A stretch of DNA of 64,000 nucleotides from Candidatus Peregrinibacteria bacterium (lineage in GTDB: Bacteria; Patescibacteriota; Gracilibacteria; UBA1369; LOWO2-01-FULL-3): positions 62,001 through 126,000 of the forward strand of contig JABILX010000009.1 in assembly GCA_018654255.1 (NCBI GenBank). Reading direction: 5' to 3'. The position numbers were made by a program, and so were the translations under genes. The notes under the pieces are model-generated. The model was not told the DNA's origin. It was given only the letters and a program-made list of their open reading frames with translations, and made no database searches. Positions 27,088 to 42,348 of the stretch are shown in pieces; the stretch's first letter is position 1; every line of letters starts with the position of its first letter.

Positions 27088-30000
27088 TTAAAGTTTAGGT
27101 TCCAATGCGTTTTTTGGAATTTTTAATGGAGATCCGGTTTTTGTTCTTCTTGCTACGATGACTTCGTGGTCTTTTGGTTCCAATGATTCCAGGAATGTTT
27201 TGTGGATCGGATGTTCTGGTGGGATATACCACAGTTCTTCATCCCACAGGTTGTCAGAGAATTCTGAGCGTGCTTTTCGAGTTATTGTATATGGAATGTT
27301 TGGATTTAGTTCTAGTTTTGATTCGAGTTTTACTCTGCGTGCTCTTCTTTCTTTTTGGAATACGTGAAGTTCTTTTTCCTCTTGTGGTTTAACTGGAGGT
27401 TCCCATTTTGGTCGAGTGGGTCGAGTGGTTGGGGTTGGTTTTGGTTTTGTTTGGCGAGCTGGTTTTGCGGGTGCGGGAGGTTTTGGTTTTGCGGATTCTT
27501 CCAATTCCTCTACTAGTTCTTGGTATTCTTGTGACGACAATTTTTTCTTCATCAAGTCGAGGAGCATTCTTCCTGCGGCATCTTCTCTTTTAGAAGTGGA
27601 TTCTAGATATCTCCAGACTGGGTATGATTTTCCGTACATAAATCCTTTGTTTGTTTTGATTGGGAAAACTGCTTCTACGAGATCTTTTCTATCTCCGAGT
27701 TCTTCTCTTACTTTTGCTGAGTCTAGGTAAACGGGTAGTCCTCTTTCGTGTCTTTTCATTGCTCTTCTTGAGTTTCTGTCTATTAGCGAATCTTCTTCAT
27801 CTGTTTTGCCTGATCCTATGTATTTGTATGAGACGATGCGATCTGCGACTGGATCATAGATTATTGCGTATAAACATTCTTCGGGTTCGAAATTTAGAGG
27901 AATTCCGATGTCTTCTGCATCTTTATATCTTTGCATGCTTTGTTCTGACATTTGATCTGGTGTGGCTAGGAAAGTTTGGTCTCCGACTTGGACTTTTACG
28001 TTTGGTTTTATTCTTTTCTTCCTACGTAGTTTGCCGTCGATTTTTACTACTTCTCCTTTTTTGTTTCTGCGTTTTGCTTCTTCTAATGTGTATTCTCCTT
28101 TTTCATCTTCCATCAGATCTTCTGGCATTTTTCTCCAAGTAATTCCGAGGTTCATTCTGCGTCCGCCGAGTGTTTGGATTCTTACTTCTTCTTGGAGGAG
28201 TGATTGGATATCTTCTGGTAGTTCTACGACTGGCATAGTTTTTTCTCCTTCGAATCTGTTGATTGATATGTTGAAAAGTTCGCATAATTTTTCTAAATCG
28301 ACGAAATTTGTACCTGCCTCTTTATTAAAAAAGAAGAGGTCTTTGATTCTTTTGTATTCGCCGTCTCTTTTTATTATTAATCTCCAGTCCTCAATGTTTC
28401 TGTCTGCAAGCTCGATTGTTCCGAAAATTATTGTGAGATCGTCTAGGATTCGTAATTTGTCATGGGTTGTTTTTTCTTCTTCTTTGTCATGGGCTCGTAA
28501 AATTTTGGAGCAGCATAAACGTTTTGTGTCTGTTATGCCTGTGATTCCGTATTGTTTTGATACTGGTAGTTGTTTGCCTCCCTTCCTGGCTTTTCTTTCT
28601 CTGAAGAAGTGTGTGTATGGGCCGAGTTCAGGGACTACTTTTGTTGCTAGTGATTCCAAGGTAAGCATCCAGAGTTGTTTGTAGTATGGATGATCTTTGT
28701 CTATGCCTGGAATATGAGCGATTCCATCTTCGTCTAGGAAGACAGAAATAACTCCTTCTCTTTCTCCTGGGAATAAGCACGCGAGTTCGTAGTAACCTGT
28801 GAAGCAACACTTTTCTTTTTTTGGGATTCCTAATCTTTCTAAATCTTCTGTTTCTATTCCGTATTCTTCGGTGAGATATCTATGTGCTAGTTCTGGATTG
28901 AATATTTCTAGAAATTTGATGACTTTTGAGATTTGAGCTTTATTATCGGTAGGGGATTTGTATGTTCTGATTGGGTCGTCTAGATCTCGGCAATTTTTGA
29001 TTAGATCTAGGTATCTTGTTATCAATGAAATACATTCTTCATCAGAAATTAATTCTAGAGATTCTTCGTCGACGATTCGATCGATTCTTGCTATCCATTC
29101 GGTGTTTCTTTCTTGGAGTCCTTCTAGTCCTTTGTATTCCTTCAAGCTAGGGGTTTTGCCTAACAATTCTGCTATTTGTTTTCTGTATGAGGCGATTATC
29201 GATGAGATTTCTGTGATTGTTGTGTTTGTTTCTGTCCATATTTCTTGCTCGAGGGTGTTGTATAGTTCTTCGAGAAGGAGAGACTCTAGGGCTGTTATAA
29301 TGATTTGTCTTTTAATTAAGTCTTCTGGGTTTATTTCTAATGCGGACAAGTCTGGCATTATAATTCGGAAGTTCTTATCAAGTGTAAAAGTGACTTGGTC
29401 TAGGCTTGCGTTTTTTGCGTTTTCTGGGTTGTCGAGAATTACAACAATTTCTGTTTGGCCGTCTTTTCTTTGAAATCTTATTGATTTGATCCCGAATTTT
29501 CCTACAACTATGTCGTTTACAGGATTTGTACTTTCCAGGAATCCTTCTTCGGGGAAGCAGTTTTCTGATCTGACTTTTTCTTCAAGGAATCCTGCGTTTC
29601 CTTCAATTAATTCTTTGAATTTTTCTAGCATGAAGGCAGCTCTGACGTTGTCGTCGTCGCATAGTGTGTTTTCCGCGATTTCTTGTTCTATGAGGTTTGC
29701 CAAGAATGTTTGTGGAGATATTTGGTTCACACTCTCTATTCCGAGAGCTTGTCTTGCTCTGTCTAGCTTTGAGGCTAAGCTTTCTCTCAAATCTGGAAAT
29801 GGTTCGAGAGCTTCTAATGCTGTTTCGTAGTGTTCTTGAGTTAGATTCGATGGGTGAATGAGAGCTAACACTTGTTCTCTTACGAGAGTTGGATTTTCGT
29901 AATAGTTTGGTATTACTCCTATTGCGAGGAGCATCTCTTGGTATTGTCCTTGGTTTTTGAAATGTTGGATGAGGTCCATTCCGATTTCGTCAAGTTCTCT

Positions 30001-31869
30001 TGATAGTGGATTGCTGGCATCTAGTCCTGCTAATAATGTTTGAGATTGTGCTATTGATAGTGCGGTTAGAACTCTGTCGTTGTATTTTCTTTGTATTTGG
30101 GAAATTTTTAGGAAAATCAGAGCGTCTTCCAAGTCGAGAGGGGAGTTTGCGTCTGCGAAAGCGAGTGCTTCTGCTATTTTGTATGCTGGTCCTGCACTTG
30201 ATCCAAATGCTTCTGGGTTTTCAATGAATGGTTGTAGGAGGTGGTTTTGCCAAAGGTCTTTTTCCCACTCTGTGCCTTTTAATTTTGGGAGGACTTTGAT
30301 TGCTGCTTGGACTCCTGTTTCTCTGAATCCTTTTGCGTTTTCTCCTCCTTCTTCTGCGAGGGCGAAGCAAGATTTTGCTAGGTAGTAGGTTGATCCTCTG
30401 TGGGCTTCTGTTACTGGGGCTGCTTGTGCCATTTTACAGGCTTTTACGTATTCTCCGGTCAGGTAGTATGCTTCTGTTAATTTGGCTGCGAAGATTACAA
30501 ATACTTCTTCAGGTAGGCCCATTCCTTTTTCGAAAATCGCTAGTATGTTTTTTATTAATGTTTCTGGATCTTCTACCTCATCTACGAACTCTTTGGCTAT
30601 TAAGTTTAGGGATGTGATGTAGTATTCTACGGGGAGCTCGAGTTCGTGAATTTCTTTGACTGCTTGTAGTTTTTTTTCTAATCCTTCTGCTGTTCCAAGT
30701 ATCGTCATCGTTGCGGCCATTTTGAATTCTAGTTGTTGCCTACCTAAATCTCTGGCTCTCATCGGGCCTGTTAGTGGGCCTATCTCTCTATCTGATTCGT
30801 CCATTTCTTCATTTTCTCTTTCTGTGTAATGATCTTTTCCTTCTACTACCGATTTACCTATTGCTATGTTTGGTATTAATCTTTTTAGCTCTTCTTGTAC
30901 TGCTTCTCTGAAGTATGGATTCTCAATTTTTTTCATTACTCTTCTGGCTTCTGCATAGTCGCTTTTGTACATTATCAAGTATCTAATTGCATATGCATAT
31001 GCTCTTATGTCGCTTGGTTTCCCTTGGTATTTTAGTCTTAATTTCTCGAGTCTGAACGGTACTCCATTTTGGCCGAGGTGATCTCTCATTAATTCTTCAA
31101 ATGCATCGGAATAGTCTTCTGCAATTGTTCCTGCTAGATGAGGGTTTTTTTCTAAAAACTCCATTACTTGGTCGAGTTGGCCTCTTTCTTTTTGAAATTT
31201 GTATAGAGTGTCGAAAAATTCAAATCTATATGGGTGTGCAAGAAGTGTTAATTGTAGAAGTTTTACGGTTTCTTCAGGGAATCTTTCTAGCGCTCCTACT
31301 CTGTTCATTTCATTTAACATTTCAGTCATCACCATGTCCATTTTCTTTTTTTGGGATCGGCATTTGATCATGCATAGTCCGAATGCTTCGAAACATGCTT
31401 TGAAGGTTTGTTCTGTTATTTCGTGAGATTGTTGGAGGGGATTTAAAACTTGTTCTTCTGCCCAGAGGGCCGTTCTGTGCAATCTTTTTCCCCAGCTGAA
31501 TGCTGTTTGTATGCTTAGAGATTTTTTTTCTTTCTCGAATTTTGCGAGAATCCTTGGGGGATTCAGGTCATATTTGGGATGGAGTTTTTCCATTTCTGAT
31601 TCTGTATTTCCAAAAAGTTTCCCCAAGTTGTGTCCGACCGTCTGTCTGTAATAGTCTGCGACTAGGGGATCAATTTGATCCAGAAAATCTTTTGCGCTGC
31701 TTACTGCTCCTTTTGGTAAGTTTTCTGCAAGTTTTTGCATGTTCATCGCCATCACGTGCCTATCGGTGCGTATGAAACTTTTGTCTGCAAAGCTTGGTGC
31801 AGTATTGGGGCGGCCGTAGCCTAAACGACTAAAGATGTCTGGTGTATCTTCTTTCATAAAGGAGAGCAT
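27088..31869 (-). CDS. Giant hypothetical protein (1593 aa) between manC and the cupin gene
   Basis: Not recognised. No signal peptide or membrane segment, so it is probably cytoplasmic. Residues 1 to about 700 are mainly helical, with TPR-like helix pairs (LTEAYYLTGEYVKACKMAQ, YYLAKSCFALAEEGG, and similar). Residues about 750-1200 are mixed, with a Cys-rich spot (KKEKCCFTGYYELACLF) near 1024. Residues about 1200-1420 look folded and beta-containing (RIQTLGGRRMNLGITWRKMP, ECLYAIIYDPVADRIVSYKY). Residues 1430-1510 form a Pro/Lys-rich linker, followed by a basic C-terminal segment. The annotated ATG overlaps a putative -10 box, so Met5 (31857) is an alternative start. Context suggests a link to mannose or surface metabolism, but this is only positional. 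Confidence 0.8.
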   Translation of the reverse strand: MLSFMKEDTPDIFSRLGYGRPNTAPSFADKSFIRTDRHVMAMNMQKLAENLPKGAVSSAKDFLDQIDPLVADYYRQTVGHNLGKLFGNTESEMEKLHPKYDLNPPRILAKFEKEKKSLSIQTAFSWGKRLHRTALWAEEQVLNPLQQSHEITEQTFKACFEAFGLCMIKCRSQKKKMDMVMTEMLNEMNRVGALERFPEETVKLLQLTLLAHPYRFEFFDTLYKFQKERGQLDQVMEFLEKNPHLAGTIAEDYSDAFEELMRDHLGQNGVPFRLEKLRLKYQGKPSDIRAYAYAIRYLIMYKSDYAEARRVMKKIENPYFREAVQEELKRLIPNIAIGKSVVEGKDHYTERENEEMDESDREIGPLTGPMRARDLGRQQLEFKMAATMTILGTAEGLEKKLQAVKEIHELELPVEYYITSLNLIAKEFVDEVEDPETLIKNILAIFEKGMGLPEEVFVIFAAKLTEAYYLTGEYVKACKMAQAAPVTEAHRGSTYYLAKSCFALAEEGGENAKGFRETGVQAAIKVLPKLKGTEWEKDLWQNHLLQPFIENPEAFGSSAGPAYKIAEALAFADANSPLDLEDALIFLKISQIQRKYNDRVLTALSIAQSQTLLAGLDASNPLSRELDEIGMDLIQHFKNQGQYQEMLLAIGVIPNYYENPTLVREQVLALIHPSNLTQEHYETALEALEPFPDLRESLASKLDRARQALGIESVNQISPQTFLANLIEQEIAENTLCDDDNVRAAFMLEKFKELIEGNAGFLEEKVRSENCFPEEGFLESTNPVNDIVVGKFGIKSIRFQRKDGQTEIVVILDNPENAKNASLDQVTFTLDKNFRIIMPDLSALEINPEDLIKRQIIITALESLLLEELYNTLEQEIWTETNTTITEISSIIASYRKQIAELLGKTPSLKEYKGLEGLQERNTEWIARIDRIVDEESLELISDEECISLITRYLDLIKNCRDLDDPIRTYKSPTDNKAQISKVIKFLEIFNPELAHRYLTEEYGIETEDLERLGIPKKEKCCFTGYYELACLFPGEREGVISVFLDEDGIAHIPGIDKDHPYYKQLWMLTLESLATKVVPELGPYTHFFRERKARKGGKQLPVSKQYGITGITDTKRLCCSKILRAHDKEEEKTTHDKLRILDDLTIIFGTIELADRNIEDWRLIIKRDGEYKRIKDLFFFNKEAGTNFVDLEKLCELFNISINRFEGEKTMPVVELPEDIQSLLQEEVRIQTLGGRRMNLGITWRKMPEDLMEDEKGEYTLEEAKRRNKKGEVVKIDGKLRRKKRIKPNVKVQVGDQTFLATPDQMSEQSMQRYKDAEDIGIPLNFEPEECLYAIIYDPVADRIVSYKYIGSGKTDEEDSLIDRNSRRAMKRHERGLPVYLDSAKVREELGDRKDLVEAVFPIKTNKGFMYGKSYPVWRYLESTSKREDAAGRMLLDLMKKKLSSQEYQELVEELEESAKPKPPAPAKPARQTKPKPTPTTRPTRPKWEPPVKPQEEKELHVFQKERRARRVKLESKLELNPNIPYTITRKARSEFSDNLWDEELWYIPPEHPIHKTFLESLEPKDHEVIVARRTKTGSPLKIPKNALEPKL

Positions 31870-32990: not shown

Positions 32991-33019
32991 TTGCCAGAAG
33001 CGTAAAAAAGTGGTATAAT
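32991..33019 (+). promoter_or_regulatory. Promoter for the 1883-aa surface protein
   Basis: TTGCCA (32991-32996), 17 bp and TATAAT (33014-33019). Predicted leader is about 44 nt, very A-rich. Confidence 0.75.
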
Positions 33020-33069: not shown

Positions 33070-36000
33070 ATGGAAACAAAACCAAAAGTGAGCCTTAAGA
33101 AGATTTTAGGGTTCTTGCTTTCGACAGTTATTGTCGTTGGCGCTCTTTATTACTACGGGCTTTACAGGCCAGCTTATGAGGAGTCTAGACCTCCTCAGAT
33201 CATGAGTGACTCTGCTTTTCAAGGACTTTTGATCGACAAGACGACGAAATTTTTCAAGTTTGAGTACAGCGATGTAGCGAACTGGGAAGCTACCACTGAT
33301 CACTACGTGGATGTTCCTGGAGGAGAAATTAGTTTCTACTATTCGGTGGAGCCAATTTCGGCGGAAGAAGTGCTGAGGTCTACTTATCCGGTTCCAGGGA
33401 TGAAAGTTGCATATGCTGACTATATGCCTGATCTGGAAAAGATGTTTCATGTTTATCCGGATGTGAGTGCTCATAGTAATTCTAGGCCAATCACGATTCA
33501 GGAAGGTGATGATTATATGATTCCTGCTTTTCGTGGGTTTGCCTTGATAGCATTTGAGGACACTAGGATTTACAATCCGTATGTAAGGGGTTTCGAAGAT
33601 GTTCCGACTCAGGAGGAGATTGATGCTGCTTATGAAGCTGTTCTTGAGGAGATGGCTGCTGCCGCTTTGGAGTCTGCTGCTAATTCTTCTGAAGGTGAAA
33701 ATGGAACGGCTAGTGTAAGATTTGGTGATTTGAATACAGCTGGTAATAGGACGGTTGCAGCGGGAGCTGATTTCTGTCCAGAATTTCCAATTCCTTTCGA
33801 GGAAGAAGATTGGATTTTATTGCCTGTAAATGAAAAGAATGTTTTTAAGAAAGTTATGAATTGTATTAATTCGAAGGTTAGTTATGAGGCTGATGGAAGC
33901 GGAGAGGGTTATGAAGCGAAATATATTTGGTTACAAACTGGTGTGAATGAGTTTTTTACCAGGTTAGATGAAGATGGAATTGATCTAGCTGATGAAGATA
34001 CGTTCGCTGAGGTAGGGGAGAGTGGCTATAGTATGGTTTGGTTCAAGATTGATACTTATAGTATTGCTGCTCCGGACCCGGATCCAATCATGTGTTCATA
34101 TGATCAAGTCTTGTATGAAGTTGGTGAAACATTTGATTCGGCAGATGAATGTAATACGTGTTCTTGCGGTGTTGATGGGGTTATAACATGTACTGATGAA
34201 ATATGTGACCCTGACCCAGATCCAATTACATGTACATATAATGAAGTTTCATATGAAGTTGGTGATATATTCGATGCAGTAGATGAATGTAATACGTGTG
34301 CTTGTGGTGATGACGGTGGGGTAATATGTGGTACTGAAACATGTGAACAAGACCCAGATCCGGTTGCGCCTCAAGTTTCGTTTGCGGAGTATGTTGAGGA
34401 TGATTTGACCAAGGTTATTGTTACTTTTGATAAAGAAGTCGAATGTTCTTTGGATGATAAGGCTGGTTGTTTCACAGTTTATTTAAATGAAGATTCTCAG
34501 GACGTGATTTATATAGTCGTTGATGCTGTACCTCTTGTTACTGAGGTAGGTTTGACTGCGAGTATTGAATGGGAATTGACTGTGGATGCGGAATTTGTTC
34601 TTGGTAGGGATTATGTGGCTGAAGCTTCTGTAGATAATGTTATGTTGGCTGGTACTGATGTTGGGGTAGATCCAGATCATAATACTGCTGAGTTTGAGCT
34701 TCCTGATCCTGAAGTGTTTGTTAATCCTACGGTTGATGAGGCTACTGCTCTTAATAAAACTACAATATTAGTTGCTTTTGATATGCCGGTTGATTGTGTT
34801 GGAGACGCTTCTGCGTGTTTCATGGTTGAGCCAGCGGATCCTGCCAATACTCCTGTAAATGTTGTTGATGCTGTTGCTGGAGAGGATTTTCCAGGAGGGC
34901 AATTTCCTGGAGATCATCATTTGAATTGGACTGTTACGGTTGATCCTCCGGGTATAGATTATAGTATTGAGGGAGAAGATGATGTTCTTTATATAGTTAC
35001 AGCTATGGCTGGAATTGTTAGTGAAGATGGAGCTGGAGTGGATCCTGATCATAATTCAGCTTTTGTTAATATTGATGAGCCGGCTCCTTTTGATACTCCT
35101 TACTTGGTGAGTGCTATTTTCGATGAGGATGATAAGACAGTTATAAATATTGCGTTTGATTTGGCTGTTAAGTGTGGGGATGGAGTTGCGGTTGTTGATT
35201 GTGTGCATGTTTTATCAAAGGATTTTGCAAATCCTAATTTGGTTGTTCAAAATATTGAGTCTTCTGATGTTTGTGACTCTGATTATTGTGAGAATTGGGT
35301 TATTACTGTTAATGAGGAGGGTGTTCCAATTTTCCCTTATAATGTTTTTGCTCCTGGGATGGAGAGTGAAGATGGAATTTTAGCCGAGGGATATGTTCAA
35401 ATTTCTTGGCCTGCGCCTATTCAGATTCCGCCTGTTATTGATAATGTTCAAGCCATGGGCACTCTGATTGCGGTTGATTTTAATATTGATATGAAAGGCA
35501 AAGAGCTGGTTCCTTTCCAGGATTGGTTTACATTGGTTGGAGAGGATGGATCTACGTTGGAAATTGCAGAGTCTCCCTATCCTTACTGTGGGAATGGAGC
35601 TGTGTATTGTCTTTACTGGGGTTTCTCAGTTGTAGAGATTGGAAATCCTGGAATTTTTTATGATGTTATGGCTCCAGGCATGGAGAGTGTGGATAAGCTT
35701 TCAACGAATAATTTTAAGAAGATATCTTGGCCAGTGCCCGATCCTGAACCTTCTATGACTCAAGCTCTTTTAGATGAGGTTGAAGTTGATGTGAATTTTG
35801 ATGATCCTGTTAAGTGTTTGGATGATATTGGAGGTGACTGTTTTAAGGTTTATCTTCAAGATGATGAACAGGTTGAGATTGAAATTGAATCTTTTGTGCG
35901 AGACGGGTGTGATGTGGATCAAAATGATGGTTATTGTGAAGATTGGATTGTTACCTTGGAGGAAGAAGGGACCCAAGGGGAGATCTATTCTATTTCTGCA

Positions 36001-38721
36001 CCAGATATGGCTAATCAGTATGGAGAGACTGTTCAAAATTCTAAGCCAATATATTGGGATGTTGAACCTGAGATTTTGAATGCTGAGATCCAGGGTAATG
36101 GCACTAATATACTTGTAGAGTTTAACGTTGGTATGAAGGGACAAGATGGGATTTCTACAGATCAGTGGTTTGAAGTTTCTCAGGAGAATGGTGCTACCTT
36201 GACTGTTGTTCCTGATTCGCCAAATTCAAATGATTATTGTATTAATGGTGCTGAATATTGTCCGCTTTGGTTGTTTGAGGTTAGTGATACTGGAGATCCT
36301 GGAGAAGATTATAATGTTTCTGCTCCTGGTATGATTAGTGAAGATGGATTGGATGCTGAGAATTCATTTGCGATTCTTTGGGAAGATGAGCTGCTGGTTT
36401 TGATTGGAGCAGTGATGAATGATAGTGATAAAAATCACATAGGTATTTATTTTAGTGAACCAGTATCTCAAGTTGGTAATTCAACAGAAGTTTATAGCAT
36501 ATCTGAAGTTGATGATCCCGAGCAGACTTTAGGAGTTGTTAGTTGGGGATTATCTGATGAGTGGGATGGTAATTGTCCGAATGAATATCCTGGTTGTGAT
36601 GTTTATGTTTTAGAGTTGGACGAAAATTTGCAGTCTGATGTTGGATATTTAGTTGTCGCGAAGTCGAGTACTGACGATTCTGATAATTATGTAACAACTT
36701 ATGATGGAGTTTCTATAGATAAAGATAATAATTCTGATGTTGTTTCTATAAGTTATGAGTATCCGATTTTGAATGTTTTATCTACTGGTCAGCCTTTGAG
36801 TAAAGTTGTGGAAAAAGGTATGACTGAGGATTATTTTGCCTTTGATTTATTGGCTGAAAACCATGATATTACTATTGATGGATTTGCCTTTGGGTTAGAG
36901 GATGGAGGTGGAAGTGCGGTTAATTTTGATGATTTTGATCAGATAGAAGTTTGGATTGATGAAGGTGAAGGAATGGCTCCGTTTGGTATTCCTGTTTCTT
37001 TGGATGATGATGAATATCTTGTGGATTTCATGACTGGTTCGGATGGTGGATTTGGTTTGACTGAGGATATTTCAAAAGAAGTGGTTGTTAAGTTGAAGAT
37101 TTCAGAAGATGCCGTTACTGGGAATGAACATAAGGTTGTATTGTCTGGTATTGATTTGTTAACACCTGATGTCTCTGTTAATAGTTTGCCTATATCTGGT
37201 AATTTGATGGAGATTGATAAGGATTTGGTGACTTTAACTGTTTCATTGTCGTCCGATACTCCTCCAGCAGAGGATGTTTATTCTGACCAGACAAATTATG
37301 AGTTCGCAAGGTTTGATCTAACAGCAGAAGGTGGTTCTGTGGTTGTTGATGGGATTGATTTGATGCTTGAGAATGACCTTGGTTATTATGGTTTTGATGG
37401 TATTGAACCTGCTTTTGAATATATTAGTGATACAAGACTTTATTTGGATACTCCAAGTGGGGAAGTATTGTTGGCTTCAGTAAAATATGATAATGAGTAT
37501 ACTATTGAATCTTTATATTTTGATTTTTCTGAAGATATATTTGTTAGTGATGGGGATACTGAAACTATCATTGTTAGAGCTGATATTCCTTATTATGCTT
37601 TAGCCTATGTGGAAGCGAGTTTTGGTATTGAGAGTGCGGCAAGTGTTGTTTATATTGAGGAAGATCTCTATGATTATGAAGTTGTTGGTGATTTTGAAAT
37701 TTGGAGTAACGTAATGACAATTAAATTTACTGGTGGTGATTTTGTTTTTAATGTTATTGAGCCTGAAGATAATAAGGTTGGGCTTTTCGGTCAAATTGGC
37801 TATGGGTTAGACCTAGCTGCAAATGTTAGTGATTATGTTTTTAATGGGTTTACTATTAGTTGTCTAAGTAACTCTGATTGTAGTAATGTTTTTGGTGTTG
37901 AGGTTTTTAATGGTGATGATTTAATAGGACAGGGCCTTGTGCTTGGAAATTATTTTCCTATTCAGCTTGTCTTTGATCAGCCTTTGTCGATTGATGCTGG
38001 CACCATAGAGTACTTGTCGTTTGAATTTACTATATTTCCGAGTCCTGGTACTGATGATATTTTGGATGATTTTATGTTTTATATCTCTGGTGTTGATGCT
38101 TCCAGTGATGGTGGCGGTCCTGTATACATTGTTGGTGGTGCTGGAAATAAGAATTCACACAAGGTGGATATGGTTGATAGGAATGTTCAGGTTTCCTTGA
38201 GTCCGAATCAGCCTTATCCTTTCAACCCAAGATCTGCCGGGAATTTATTCGCCTATATGAATGTTGATCTGACTGCTGAGTATGGGCCCGTTGAGGTTGA
38301 AGGATTAAAGCTTACTTGGAAGTATGGTCATAATGGTACTGTTAATGATTTTGAAGAAATTGTTTTAGGTTATAATGGAATGGATTCGGGGCTTCCTATT
38401 GAAGAGCACTTCACGATTCCAAATAATCCTTACTCATACCAATCTAAATCGATCGATGATGCTGAATTTACGATAGATCTTAATTTTAAGCAGGATAGTC
38501 TTAAGATTACAGGTGGTGAAACAGAGATGGTTCAGGTGTTACTCAAGACTGAGAATCCGTTTATGCTTGGGAACATGTCGGAGTCGGTGTTTGGTATATA
38601 TGCTCCTACAAGTATAATTGTTAATCCTTATTTGGGGTATTACGACAAAGATTTTCCAATCACAGTTGAGTTGGTGGAGGATGATGGTTTGATCGAAGGA
38701 GGCGTGATTCAGGTCGACTAA
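33070..38721 (+). CDS. Giant membrane-anchored surface protein with Cys-rich and Ig-like repeats (1883 aa)
   Basis: One N-terminal hydrophobic segment (residues 9-30, KKILGFLLSTVIVVGALYYY) with no clear cleavage site acts as anchor; everything after it is probably extracellular. Residues 35-333 form a module shared with the 1013-aa protein (PAFRGFALIAFEDT, DWILLPVNEKNV, YSMVWFKIDTY). Residues 342-425 hold two 42-residue Cys-rich repeats with the pattern DECNTC-x-C-x(n)-DG-x(n)-C-x(n)-C, like pacifastin/VWC domains. Residues 430-1235 contain about seven Ig-like repeats with strands such as KVIVTFDKEVEC, many carrying a paired Cys. Residues 1240-1883 contain about four repeats of a second beta type (FDLTAEGGSVVVDGIDLML, and so on). 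The protein is very acidic and low in Lys. It is transcribed alone and ends in a terminator. S-layer or adhesin is inferred. Confidence 0.9.
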   Translation: METKPKVSLKKILGFLLSTVIVVGALYYYGLYRPAYEESRPPQIMSDSAFQGLLIDKTTKFFKFEYSDVANWEATTDHYVDVPGGEISFYYSVEPISAEEVLRSTYPVPGMKVAYADYMPDLEKMFHVYPDVSAHSNSRPITIQEGDDYMIPAFRGFALIAFEDTRIYNPYVRGFEDVPTQEEIDAAYEAVLEEMAAAALESAANSSEGENGTASVRFGDLNTAGNRTVAAGADFCPEFPIPFEEEDWILLPVNEKNVFKKVMNCINSKVSYEADGSGEGYEAKYIWLQTGVNEFFTRLDEDGIDLADEDTFAEVGESGYSMVWFKIDTYSIAAPDPDPIMCSYDQVLYEVGETFDSADECNTCSCGVDGVITCTDEICDPDPDPITCTYNEVSYEVGDIFDAVDECNTCACGDDGGVICGTETCEQDPDPVAPQVSFAEYVEDDLTKVIVTFDKEVECSLDDKAGCFTVYLNEDSQDVIYIVVDAVPLVTEVGLTASIEWELTVDAEFVLGRDYVAEASVDNVMLAGTDVGVDPDHNTAEFELPDPEVFVNPTVDEATALNKTTILVAFDMPVDCVGDASACFMVEPADPANTPVNVVDAVAGEDFPGGQFPGDHHLNWTVTVDPPGIDYSIEGEDDVLYIVTAMAGIVSEDGAGVDPDHNSAFVNIDEPAPFDTPYLVSAIFDEDDKTVINIAFDLAVKCGDGVAVVDCVHVLSKDFANPNLVVQNIESSDVCDSDYCENWVITVNEEGVPIFPYNVFAPGMESEDGILAEGYVQISWPAPIQIPPVIDNVQAMGTLIAVDFNIDMKGKELVPFQDWFTLVGEDGSTLEIAESPYPYCGNGAVYCLYWGFSVVEIGNPGIFYDVMAPGMESVDKLSTNNFKKISWPVPDPEPSMTQALLDEVEVDVNFDDPVKCLDDIGGDCFKVYLQDDEQVEIEIESFVRDGCDVDQNDGYCEDWIVTLEEEGTQGEIYSISAPDMANQYGETVQNSKPIYWDVEPEILNAEIQGNGTNILVEFNVGMKGQDGISTDQWFEVSQENGATLTVVPDSPNSNDYCINGAEYCPLWLFEVSDTGDPGEDYNVSAPGMISEDGLDAENSFAILWEDELLVLIGAVMNDSDKNHIGIYFSEPVSQVGNSTEVYSISEVDDPEQTLGVVSWGLSDEWDGNCPNEYPGCDVYVLELDENLQSDVGYLVVAKSSTDDSDNYVTTYDGVSIDKDNNSDVVSISYEYPILNVLSTGQPLSKVVEKGMTEDYFAFDLLAENHDITIDGFAFGLEDGGGSAVNFDDFDQIEVWIDEGEGMAPFGIPVSLDDDEYLVDFMTGSDGGFGLTEDISKEVVVKLKISEDAVTGNEHKVVLSGIDLLTPDVSVNSLPISGNLMEIDKDLVTLTVSLSSDTPPAEDVYSDQTNYEFARFDLTAEGGSVVVDGIDLMLENDLGYYGFDGIEPAFEYISDTRLYLDTPSGEVLLASVKYDNEYTIESLYFDFSEDIFVSDGDTETIIVRADIPYYALAYVEASFGIESAASVVYIEEDLYDYEVVGDFEIWSNVMTIKFTGGDFVFNVIEPEDNKVGLFGQIGYGLDLAANVSDYVFNGFTISCLSNSDCSNVFGVEVFNGDDLIGQGLVLGNYFPIQLVFDQPLSIDAGTIEYLSFEFTIFPSPGTDDILDDFMFYISGVDASSDGGGPVYIVGGAGNKNSHKVDMVDRNVQVSLSPNQPYPFNPRSAGNLFAYMNVDLTAEYGPVEVEGLKLTWKYGHNGTVNDFEEIVLGYNGMDSGLPIEEHFTIPNNPYSYQSKSIDDAEFTIDLNFKQDSLKITGGETEMVQVLLKTENPFMLGNMSESVFGIYAPTSIIVNPYLGYYDKDFPITVELVEDDGLIEGGVIQVD

Positions 38722-38764
38722 CCACACATTTGCTAAAACATAAAATTAGGGTTTTGTTAAGAAG

Positions 38765-38804
38765 ATTTGGTGAGGATATGTAGAATGTCCTTGCCAAATT
38801 TTTC
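38765..38804 (+). terminator. Intrinsic terminator after the 1883-aa gene
   Basis: A 15-bp stem with three G-U pairs: 38765-38779 pairs with 38785-38799 around the loop GTAGA, followed by TTTTT (38799-38803) and a further T-rich stretch. The best-formed terminator in the window. Confidence 0.85.
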
Positions 38805-38830
38805 GTTCTTTGTTTTAATTTAGTGGAGTT

Positions 38831-38859
38831 TTGAAAAAAGCTCTCTATATATATATAAA
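38831..38859 (+). promoter_or_regulatory. Promoter for the 1013-aa surface protein
   Basis: TTGAAA (38831-38836), 17 bp and TATAAA (38854-38859). The TTG that could be read as an earlier start codon is this -35 box, which places the true start at ATG 38876, only about 10 nt after the predicted transcript start. Confidence 0.7.
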
Positions 38860-38875
38860 TTTAACCCTAATTCCT

Positions 38876-41872
38876 ATGGCTGATGAAGCTATGACTCCGA
38901 AATCTGGTGGTTTCACTAAGATTTTGGGTCTCTTGGTTGTATTGGCATTGATTGTCGGTGCAGCTCTTTATTACGGAGGTTTCCTAGGTGGATCTGATGA
39001 TGACATGCCACCTTCACTAGACCTCACAGGTGAGACTGGACAAGGTATGCTAGCGCTTGATGGCGATGCTTACGCTACGGTTGTTAAGGATGATCCGGAT
39101 TACGACTGTGATGCTACTACTCCGATAGATGTCGATGTTCCTACAGGTTCTGGAACTGCTGTCTTTGTTTATCCAACAGAGGATGTCACTTTTGAAGATT
39201 TGACGACTTATGTTCAGGCTGAAGACGAAGATGCGAAAGTAATGTTTGTGTATTGGAATGAAGCTGGAGACGGAACTCCTTACGAGGAGCGTTATACGTT
39301 AGAAGGTGAGAGAAGTAAAAACTGGTATGCTTATCCAGGTGTAACATCTTTGACTAAGATTCCTGTAGCTGATTTAGATGATTATGAAATTGAAGCTTAC
39401 CATGGCTTCTATATGGTTGTATTTGATGCTGATGTTGAGGTTTGTCCAGACAAGCTTGCTTTGCAAGATGAAGGTCTGGATATTGACTCTGTTGCTGATG
39501 GTGTTGATTTCTATGAAGATTACGTTGAGGATAAGATTCCTGATGAAGGATGGGTTCTTTTGGCTGCTAATGATGAAGATGTTTTAAAAACTATATTGGA
39601 AGAATCTACAGCTACTGATTCTACTTTTACAGTAGATTCGGCTTGGATTCAGATGGATGATGATCCAGATGATATGTTCACTGGTGGAAAGGTTGATCTT
39701 GAAGCATTCTATAATGATGAGGAAACTCTTTCAACAGATTATGACATGATGTGGTTGAAGGTTACTGAATATGATGAGGATAAGGTTTATTTGACCGATT
39801 ATTTGGATGTTGTTAGTGTGTTTGCTGAGGTAAGCACTCCGACACAAGTTACAGTTACATTTAATGAGGATGTAAAGACTATTAATTCTATAGGTACTGA
39901 TTTTGGTGTAGTTAAAGAGGGTGCTGTTGCTGAAACTCTAACTGTTACGAATGCGAAGTTTGGACCTGATGTGTTATATCCTACTGATCCTACTAAATTT
40001 AATTACAAAGAAGTAGTCTTGACCCTTGCAGAGACTTTAACTGTACTTACAGAGGGGAATTATAAATTGACTAGTTCTTCTAGTTTGGAATCGAAGGATG
40101 ATGGATATCCTCTTGATCCGAATGATGTGACACAGCCTTTCAATTTGTCAGATTACTTGAATCTAGTTGAAGCTCCTGCTTTTACAGCTACCTCTGTTAT
40201 TTTGACTTTCGATCAGGATCTTGTGGCTGTAGATGAAGATAATTTTGAATTTAACAAGGTTGAGACTGATGCGGATGGTGTTGTTACATTGGTGGATTTG
40301 GCTGATGACATTATTGCTGATGCTAAATTTGTGACGGATGCTGATCTAACGGTTAATAAGAAAGTTGTTGAACTTACGTTATCTATTCCGGTTGATCCAC
40401 CAGCGGGGATGACTTATAGGCTTACAATGATTGGGCTTGCGACTGCTGATGGGACTACCTTTGTTGTAGGTGGGAATCACGTTGACTTTGTGAGTGGTGG
40501 GGATCCTGTGGTAGAAGATGATTACCTAGACCTTATGACTGCTACTTCAGCTGATGGAGTTACTATTACTTTGACTTTTGATGAGGATCTAAAGCCTGAG
40601 GAGGCTGCAGATAGCGCTAAATATGTTGTAACTGATGCTGCTGCTGTTGAGTATACTGTTGGTTTGGCTGCAATGGTTGCTACTGACCCAAAGCAAGTAA
40701 CGCTTACAATGGATCCTGTTTTATTAGAATCGGGTACTTATACTGTTACAGTTTCAAATTTACTTGGTCTTGATGGAAGCACATTGGATCCTGTGGATCC
40801 TACGAAGAGCGTAGCTACATTTGAATTTGCTGCACCTGTCGCAGCTACGTTGGAGCTTGTTTCAGCGGCTGCTGTAGATGATGGGGCTGGGTTTCAGTTG
40901 ACATTTAATGAGGGTGTGAATCCTGCTGGTTTAACATTAGCTACTATCGAAGATAATATACTCGTTGAGCCGTCGGTTACTATGACAAGTATCATCTCAA
41001 ATGGTGCTGGACTTGTGAGTGTGGGTGCTCTTCTTACTGCTGATGTTCCTTATACAGTGACTGTGTCAAACATGACTGCAGCTGCTGGTGGTGGCGGATT
41101 GGTAACAGATAAGAATATTCAAACATTTACTTATACAGAGCAGGTTGTTGCTACTTTAGAACTAGTTACTGCAGCTGCGTTGGTTGATGGTATGGGATTC
41201 ACTTTGACTTTTAACGAAGCCTTAGATCCTTTAACCGCAACAGCTGCTAATATTTCTGTGAATGTTCTTGTTATTGATGAGCCTACTTTGAGTGATAATA
41301 ATAAAATTCTGACTGTGCCTGTTGCCGCGGAGATGCTAGATGGTGAGTATACAGTTGACGTGACAGGTATGACTAATGCTGCTGGTGTTGGATTTGCAGA
41401 GGATATGAATACTAAAACATTTACTTATACAGCAGAGCCTCTGGTTACTTTCGCAATTGGGGAAGTTCAGCCTGATGGGTTTTCTCCGCAAGTCTTGACT
41501 ATGGCTCTTGATGTGTTGTTTTTGGGAGTAGAATCTGTTGCCACTGGTGGTACTGTTGAATTATCTGCTGTCAGACTTAACCTTGTAAGTGGTGATGTGG
41601 CAGACTTGAGTAATATACGTGTTGTTACGAGTGGTGAGCCTGTTGGTTCAGCAGCAGCTTCGTTTAATGCAGATAAAACTGTTGTTTTTACTTTTGATCC
41701 AGTGATTACCATTTTAGAGGATACATCTCTTGTGTTTTTTGTTAAGGCAGATCTAACAGCCGATGCAGTAACTGGGGATTCTTTGGAGATTAATCTTACT
41801 AATGCTTCGGTTCCTGAAGGTGTTCAAAAGACTATAGGTATGGATATACCTCTTGTTGTCACTGTTCAGTAA
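38876..41872 (+). CDS. Membrane-anchored surface protein with SbsA-type Ig-like repeats (998 aa)
   Basis: The start is set at ATG 38876 (MADEAMTPKSGG) because the longer frame from TTG 38831 begins inside the promoter. A single hydrophobic segment (about residues 15-35, LGLLVVLALIVGAALYYGG) anchors the protein. Residues 40-305 match the N-terminal module of the 1883-aa neighbour (EAYHGFYMVVFDAD, EGWVLLAANDEDV, YDMMWLKVTEY). About five Ig-like repeats follow, each with an S-layer-like strand such as VILTFDQDLVA, ITLTFDEDLKP, FQLTFNEGVNP or FTLTFNEALDP. The last 130 residues resemble the second repeat type of the neighbour (VTFAIGEVQPDG, SLVFFVKADLTADAV). It is Asp-rich with few Lys. Likely a paralogous surface or S-layer component; it ends 2 bp from a convergent sorting-signal protein. 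Confidence 0.9.
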   Translation: MADEAMTPKSGGFTKILGLLVVLALIVGAALYYGGFLGGSDDDMPPSLDLTGETGQGMLALDGDAYATVVKDDPDYDCDATTPIDVDVPTGSGTAVFVYPTEDVTFEDLTTYVQAEDEDAKVMFVYWNEAGDGTPYEERYTLEGERSKNWYAYPGVTSLTKIPVADLDDYEIEAYHGFYMVVFDADVEVCPDKLALQDEGLDIDSVADGVDFYEDYVEDKIPDEGWVLLAANDEDVLKTILEESTATDSTFTVDSAWIQMDDDPDDMFTGGKVDLEAFYNDEETLSTDYDMMWLKVTEYDEDKVYLTDYLDVVSVFAEVSTPTQVTVTFNEDVKTINSIGTDFGVVKEGAVAETLTVTNAKFGPDVLYPTDPTKFNYKEVVLTLAETLTVLTEGNYKLTSSSSLESKDDGYPLDPNDVTQPFNLSDYLNLVEAPAFTATSVILTFDQDLVAVDEDNFEFNKVETDADGVVTLVDLADDIIADAKFVTDADLTVNKKVVELTLSIPVDPPAGMTYRLTMIGLATADGTTFVVGGNHVDFVSGGDPVVEDDYLDLMTATSADGVTITLTFDEDLKPEEAADSAKYVVTDAAAVEYTVGLAAMVATDPKQVTLTMDPVLLESGTYTVTVSNLLGLDGSTLDPVDPTKSVATFEFAAPVAATLELVSAAAVDDGAGFQLTFNEGVNPAGLTLATIEDNILVEPSVTMTSIISNGAGLVSVGALLTADVPYTVTVSNMTAAAGGGGLVTDKNIQTFTYTEQVVATLELVTAAALVDGMGFTLTFNEALDPLTATAANISVNVLVIDEPTLSDNNKILTVPVAAEMLDGEYTVDVTGMTNAAGVGFAEDMNTKTFTYTAEPLVTFAIGEVQPDGFSPQVLTMALDVLFLGVESVATGGTVELSAVRLNLVSGDVADLSNIRVVTSGEPVGSAAASFNADKTVVFTFDPVITILEDTSLVFFVKADLTADAVTGDSLEINLTNASVPEGVQKTIGMDIPLVVTVQ

Positions 41873-41874
41873 CT

Positions 41875-42348
41875 TTAGTCCCTTTCTTTACCCAATTTTC
41901 GGTTAACACCGACACTTAATAGCAGGCCTAGGAGCAAGAATACATATGCTTCTGGGCCTGTTTCAGAAAGGGCGTCAGAAGTTGTATTAGTTGATCCACC
42001 AGGTGGAGGAGGAGGTGGAGGAGTTCCACTAGGAGTTGCAGGTGCAGGCGCTGGATCCGGTTCTGGGTCTGGGTCGTCTGCAGGATCGTCCGCAGGATCG
42101 TCCGCTGGATCATCTGCTCCTGGTTCATCTAGATTTAGACCTGGAGGAAGATCATCTCCGCCGTCGTCAGCAGGTACTCCTAGATCGAGACCTGGAGGAG
42201 CGTCATCTTCTTCTTCTTCGTCTGGGAAATTGAAATTTAGACCTGGGGGAAGAGCATCGTCTTCAGCGAATGCTACTAATACATTAGTAGAAAGTGCTGT
42301 AAGTAGGAGCGTTGCAAATATTGCAACTGAAGCTTTGAATGTTTTCAT
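41875..42348 (-). CDS. Small secreted acidic protein with a sortase-type LSETG sorting signal
   Basis: 157 residues. The signal peptide MKTFKASVAIFATLLLTALS runs to a likely cut after AFA (about 28). Then three PPGL-containing acidic units (LPPGLNFNFPDEEEE, APPGLDLGVP, LPPGLNLDEPG), a run of ADDP repeats, and a Pro-rich stalk (PPPPPPPGGS). The C-terminus is LSETG, a hydrophobic stretch (AYVFLLLGLLLSVGV) and a basic tail (NRKLGKERD), the layout of a sortase substrate with LPxTG changed to LSETG. It has its own promoter at 42387-42415. Probably a surface protein attached by a sortase; the sortase gene is not in this window. Confidence 0.8.
   Translation of the reverse strand: MKTFKASVAIFATLLLTALSTNVLVAFAEDDALPPGLNFNFPDEEEEDDAPPGLDLGVPADDGGDDLPPGLNLDEPGADDPADDPADDPADDPDPEPDPAPAPATPSGTPPPPPPPGGSTNTTSDALSETGPEAYVFLLLGLLLSVGVNRKLGKERD

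Follow-up and report, generated by a model that had tools for sequence, protein, structure and literature searches.

Two large predicted surface proteins share an N-terminal design

The window analysed here, a stretch of 64,000 nucleotides from a Candidatus Peregrinibacteria bacterium, carries two large genes in tandem on the forward strand. They encode predicted surface proteins of 1883 aa (A, 33070..38721) and 998 aa (B, 38876..41872, counted from an ATG; the ORF listing opens 45 nt upstream of this codon, at a TTG). Both reading frames lie where a preliminary description of this DNA had placed them, and hydropathy finds in each the single N-terminal membrane anchor that had been claimed (residues 11-30 of A, 33100..33159; residues 15-34 of B, 38918..38977; all features of A and B are on the forward strand). 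The two N-termini run from a short basic or polar stretch through one hydrophobic segment (KILGFLLSTVIVVGALYYYG in A; KILGLLVVLALIVGAALYYG in B) into a Pro-Pro motif, which alignment and a motif table locate next to the membrane anchor as EESRPPQI in A (33178..33201) and DDDMPPSLDL in B (38996..39025).

A promoter-like site upstream of A (TTGCCA-17-TATAAT, with a TG before the second hexamer; 32991..33019) is a match to the consensus, and the candidate promoter of B is weaker. Promoter-like sites in the region number 27, against 25.2 +/- 4.9 in shuffled sequence, and are thus not above the shuffle level; the separate strong promoters once assigned to both genes could not be upheld. The terminator described between the genes was found as a terminator-like hairpin (38761..38803). 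Beside the locus, on the reverse strand, a 1593-aa protein (27088-31869) stays below the cut-off both in Pfam, where its best E is 0.004, and in NCBIfam, and has no relative among the module loci compared.

A base module common to both proteins

The Pro-Pro motif opens a base module whose limits, taken from pairwise and profile alignment and for B also from a structural model, are roughly residues 34-331 of A (33169..34062) and 38-300 of B (38987..39775). The two modules, about 22% identical in a 45-row alignment, are homologous. Their Smith-Waterman score has z = 11 and is attained by 0 of 1000 shuffles, and a search of the genome with the B module as query picks up A at E = 3.9e-7. When a profile was built from 43 relatives, with every window sequence left out, it recovered A (E 1.3e-25) and B (E 3.5e-26); 200 shuffled copies served as control, all with E >= 0.25. 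The similarity is beyond chance, so the kinship of the two modules proposed earlier did not founder on a want of significant similarity.

The membrane-proximal unit of module proteins comprises a transmembrane anchor, a near-invariant PPx[LIV] and a further 220-290 aa, and A and B follow the family pattern of an N-terminal transmembrane segment, then PPx[LIVFA], then the module. Near-invariant across 45 members are two prolines (PPx[LIVF]), the glycine of the [FL][QK]G that comes next, and two tryptophans. The motif stands at the start of the module in 61 of 64 module proteins, A and B included; one of the exceptions has FPAL instead, and the remaining two were matched only from within the module.

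In the members scanned, the module belongs to no significant Pfam or NCBIfam family: matches occur in single members at E >= 4e-4, and the best of these stray hits (E 4e-4 and 1e-3, each seen in a single member out of 45) we regard as chance. The module profile finds no PDB relative by sequence. AlphaFold2 models of a relative's module (pLDDT 81.1, pTM 0.82) and of the B module (pLDDT 77.9, pTM 0.80) are compact alpha/beta domains; fold searches with both models against the PDB, and with one of them against the predicted viral structures of BFVD, returned nothing at E <= 0.001. There was no match in the phage records searched, nor in a scan of genome contigs with the B module alone as query. 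The base domain thus stands as undescribed as far as Pfam, NCBIfam, the PDB and BFVD go, and the earlier view of it as previously undescribed agrees with its lack of a Pfam, NCBIfam or PDB counterpart by sequence or PDB fold. In both models the first ten residues, Pro-Pro motif included, have a mean pLDDT of 70-72, and the linker after them about 43-51; a motif peptide packed on the base domain would fit this pattern, which we take as a hint only. An internal duplication of the module was considered for the similar strand-helix-strand order of its halves and was rejected, the half-against-half profile comparison giving a probability of 0.2.

Distribution and copy number of the module

A search for the module in related genomes, suggested in the preliminary description, found it in 25 of the 30 genomes of the same family (24 in one profile search round, then 25) and in 31 of the 89 of the order. 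Outside its own family it is sporadic, scattered over families f14, f8 and f3, and none of the genomes sampled beyond the order has it. When 380 genomes were drawn evenly across the phylum, nine had matches, all nine from the same family. The B module alone, run against 60 genomes, reached weak relatives in nine. At the limit of profile reach, a contig of family f3 (L105, G031:C10) encodes three weak tandem module proteins, one of them of 2306 aa.

Genomes carry one to five copies, often in tandem. A tree of 42 modules places separate local duplications in five genomes (G004, G006, G009, G019 and G021), and the copies have expanded by tandem duplication; the split between A and B is weakly resolved in this tree (83/59) and not datable from it. 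The syntenic relative (L072, G018:C8) has a single module protein against two in the window. The gene order common to both loci is ManC homolog, module protein, small tail protein, gpmI, prepilin peptidase, TPR protein, RuvC and pyruvate kinase, names that were given by reading except for the ManC and TPR proteins, which were scanned. For a neighbouring protein of 1145 aa, the only match is 70% identical and comes from Candidatus Peregrinibacteria isolate SI054_bin37 (JABIJZ010000001.1). A conserved operon of T4SS_pilin and giant T4SS_pilin-PKD genes lies beside module genes at L015, L017, L019, L020, L023, L055, L064, L068, L070 and L107. Contigs often end in or near module genes (L059, L061, L062, L064, L070, L071, L073, L099, L106 and L109), as if strain variation or repeats in these genes broke the assemblies.

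Outer parts differ between A and B and across the family

In A, about seven tandem repeats (residues 429-1245, 34354..36804) are Ig-like by internal similarity, with best internal E values of 1e-7 to 2e-22, and have no Pfam match, Big_5 included. The five Ig-like repeats of B (39791..41449), delimited by Pfam and self-comparison, are of the Big_5 type (PF13205), three stretches passing the curated cut-off (35.7 bits against 23.6). The tandem Ig-like repeats formerly ascribed to both proteins hold in B; in A they amount to related repeats outside any Pfam family; between the two proteins the similarity is marginal, at best about 4e-4 to 1e-3. Big_5 domains also make up SbsA-type S-layer stalks, but here the likeness concerns the outer part of B only, the base module being unrelated and the A repeats unmatched.

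A second, beta-rich repeat type fills the remainder of A (residues 1246-1883, 36805..38718). Repeats A8, A9 and A11 match one another at E 3e-6 to 9e-3 (A9-A11 at about 4e-6), and A10 is unrelated to them by the same test. The C-terminal beta domain of B (41450..41869) is weakly like this type (A8-B6, E 0.007). The second type thus holds within A and is marginal between A and B and, with outer repeats only marginally similar, the idea that both proteins carry the same two repeat types survives in part.

Outer parts also differ among paralogs and genomes, with fn3 domains in several, Laminin_G_3 in one (L022), Big_5 in B, and Cys-rich or unrecognised sequence in others. A shared module with unrelated ectodomains agrees with the proposal of a conserved part by the membrane and a variable part outward, a topology that we predict from the anchors.

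Between module and repeats, A contains two Cys-rich domains missed in the preliminary description (residues 342-379, 34093..34206; residues 388-425, 34231..34344). Both match PF05375 (Pacifastin_I) above cut-off, at 43 bits against 27.9, and share with the pacifastin family the six-cysteine CNxCxC pattern. They differ from it in being embedded in a giant surface-type protein and in separating the first two cysteines by 18 residues, a spacing that is shorter in insect pacifastin inhibitors.

Within the 30 genomes of the family PF05375 occurs only in this one, with nine matches in four ORFs: A; an SLH protein in which five of the domains accompany LamG-like parts; a 425-aa protein whose N-terminus holds a hydrophobic segment; and a 1002-aa protein with a TGP tail. 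These proteins (window 34093-34344; L123, L124, L125) have differing anchors or tails, namely module and transmembrane segment, SLH, N-terminal hydrophobic segment and TGP. In this genome the gene of the 1002-aa protein directly follows the PKD/T4SS_pilin operon (G000:C1:48389-56637, apart from the module genes), a place where many relatives keep module genes. Bacterial pacifastin-like domains, those of CPR included, were reported in 2026 (PMC13388995), so their presence in CPR is not new; their spread over differently anchored surface proteins of one genome is absent from the passages of that paper considered here.

A small neighbouring protein repeats the module's motif

On the opposite strand, two bases past the stop codon of B, ends a gene to which the preliminary description made no link. 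It encodes a protein of 157 aa (41875..42348, reverse strand) that reads as a signal peptide, three D-x-x-PPGL motifs at 17-aa spacing (42130..42261), an Asp/Pro-rich stalk and a sortase-type tail, LSETGPE followed by a hydrophobic stretch and RKLGKERD (41878..41970; read from the sequence, with no Pfam match). The signal peptide and C-terminal tail were read by simple pattern and hydropathy in 13 such partners, the partner of the window having no match to a curated model. Of 20 tail proteins detected automatically, 18 are no more than 1.5 kb from a module gene, or 19 of 21 with L019 added by eye, counts that were made within loci chosen for holding a module. The same design recurs next to module genes across numerous relatives, one of them from another family (L100), and several loci lack it despite ample flanks (L056, L060, L065 and L068).

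The partner motif (D-x-PP-x-L) is the one with which the module of the giant proteins starts. In 13 of 13 small partners a PPx[LIVA] lies about 10 residues or less from the probable signal cleavage site, and [DESTN]xPPx[LIVF] occurs 27 times in these proteins, against 2.2 +/- 1.4 in composition-preserving shuffles, of which 0 in 5000 attain 27. The motif background was measured on the ORFs of the window and the module loci, and the motif test is independent of the adjacency counts. The genome has a single sortase (PF04203, 88.5 bits, C7:36261-36686), in which His, Cys and Arg each have the sequence context expected. With its predicted signal peptide, its putative TGP-hydrophobic-basic sorting tail and this one sortase in the genome, the partner resembles LPxTG-like sortase substrates. 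It differs from them in that the tail motif of the relatives is [TN]GP[GE], often without a leading LP, and its anchoring is predicted.

Discussion

The homology of the modules, their distribution and copy-number variation, the differences between ectodomains, the neighbouring partner and the shared motif lead us to a reading that we consider likely: A and B are paralogs of a surface-display family of Peregrinibacteria, built from a fixed base, exchangeable outer parts and a small partner that shares the motif of the base. Variable copy number and unrelated ectodomains argue for such an exchangeable chassis rather than a fixed S-layer pair. That both proteins sit in the membrane by the N-terminus and are exposed at the surface is a prediction from their sequences. 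What is new here is the frequent neighbour of the module genes, a small protein with a predicted signal peptide and sortase-type tail that repeats the Pro-Pro motif of the module just past the signal peptide.

The two proteins had been thought to form a two-component S-layer or an adhesin pair. A lattice would suit their large size, the Ig-like repeats of S-layer type (Big_5) and the upstream mannose-1-phosphate guanylyltransferase homolog, which would agree with glycosylation, but a Pfam scan finds no SLH domain in A or B, whereas 52 SLH matches occur elsewhere in this genome, spread over about 25 ORFs, some of more than 5000 aa. Moreover, relatives have one to five copies with unrelated outer parts, the syntenic relative has a single copy, and a bacterial lattice protein would not usually be held by a transmembrane segment. 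We find the two-component S-layer unsupported and see little chance that A and B are parts of such a lattice; the adhesin reading, argued from domain types, is plausible. The module could instead be an enzyme or a ligand-binding sensor domain, as befits the most conserved part of these proteins and one modelled as a compact alpha/beta domain. This is very unlikely in our opinion, as the near-invariant positions of the 45 sequences, two prolines, one glycine and two tryptophans, include no polar residues suited to catalysis and the module matches no enzyme family or fold in Pfam, NCBIfam or the PDB.

Module proteins might also be accessory outer parts of the PKD/T4SS_pilin apparatus, that is, of a secretion or pilus-like machine, since at least ten loci have module genes beside the operon for T4SS_pilin membrane proteins and the fusions of T4SS_pilin with PKD. 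In the genome of the window, however, that operon sits on another contig, the syntenic relative G018 has its module beside housekeeping genes, and nothing in sequence ties the module to secretion components, which makes this account improbable. We are slightly more open to an undescribed form of surface fixation, unlikely as it is, in which the partner would act as a multivalent adaptor. Its PPx[LIV] copies would be bound by base domains or by a common receptor, and interchangeable giant ectodomains would be grouped or fastened to the wall in this way, with no reliance on an SLH domain or sortase tail in the same protein.

In the display chassis that we favour, export would leave the N-terminal signal-anchor of A and B in the membrane. 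The PPx[LIV] motif and the base domain, at the membrane's outer face and below or in the wall, would hold the long outer part. This fast-changing part, with its Ig-like and other beta repeats and, in A, two disulfide-rich knots, would most likely touch other cells or matrix. Copies of the module would arise by tandem duplication and later gain different outer parts. The PPx[LIV] shared by the giant proteins and their sortase-type neighbour may mark a common step of envelope docking or assembly. We infer that the common motif is a shared envelope-docking element, and its recurrence points to one binding site that would receive the giant proteins and the small wall-type protein alike; Pro/Asp-rich low-complexity proteins may also converge on PPxL.

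Exchange and duplication of outer parts would fit contact with other cells or with matrix, and the same argument is made for the large variable extracellular proteins of Candidatus Peribacter riflensis (PMC4736985). These are partly Cys-rich proteins of the same phylum, likewise large, exported and strain-variable, and thought to act in attachment, in genomes that also hold S-layer genes and a sortase. For them, the passages of that paper considered here mention no common base domain, PPxL motif or partner protein, a comparison made by description.

The giant surface proteins of CPR bacteria are mostly unannotatable, and a domain profile that spans a whole family offers a handle on how these bacteria hold other cells. 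With the base-module profile, display proteins can be listed genome by genome and their outer parts compared, and one short motif and one small partner can now be tested as a common anchoring element.
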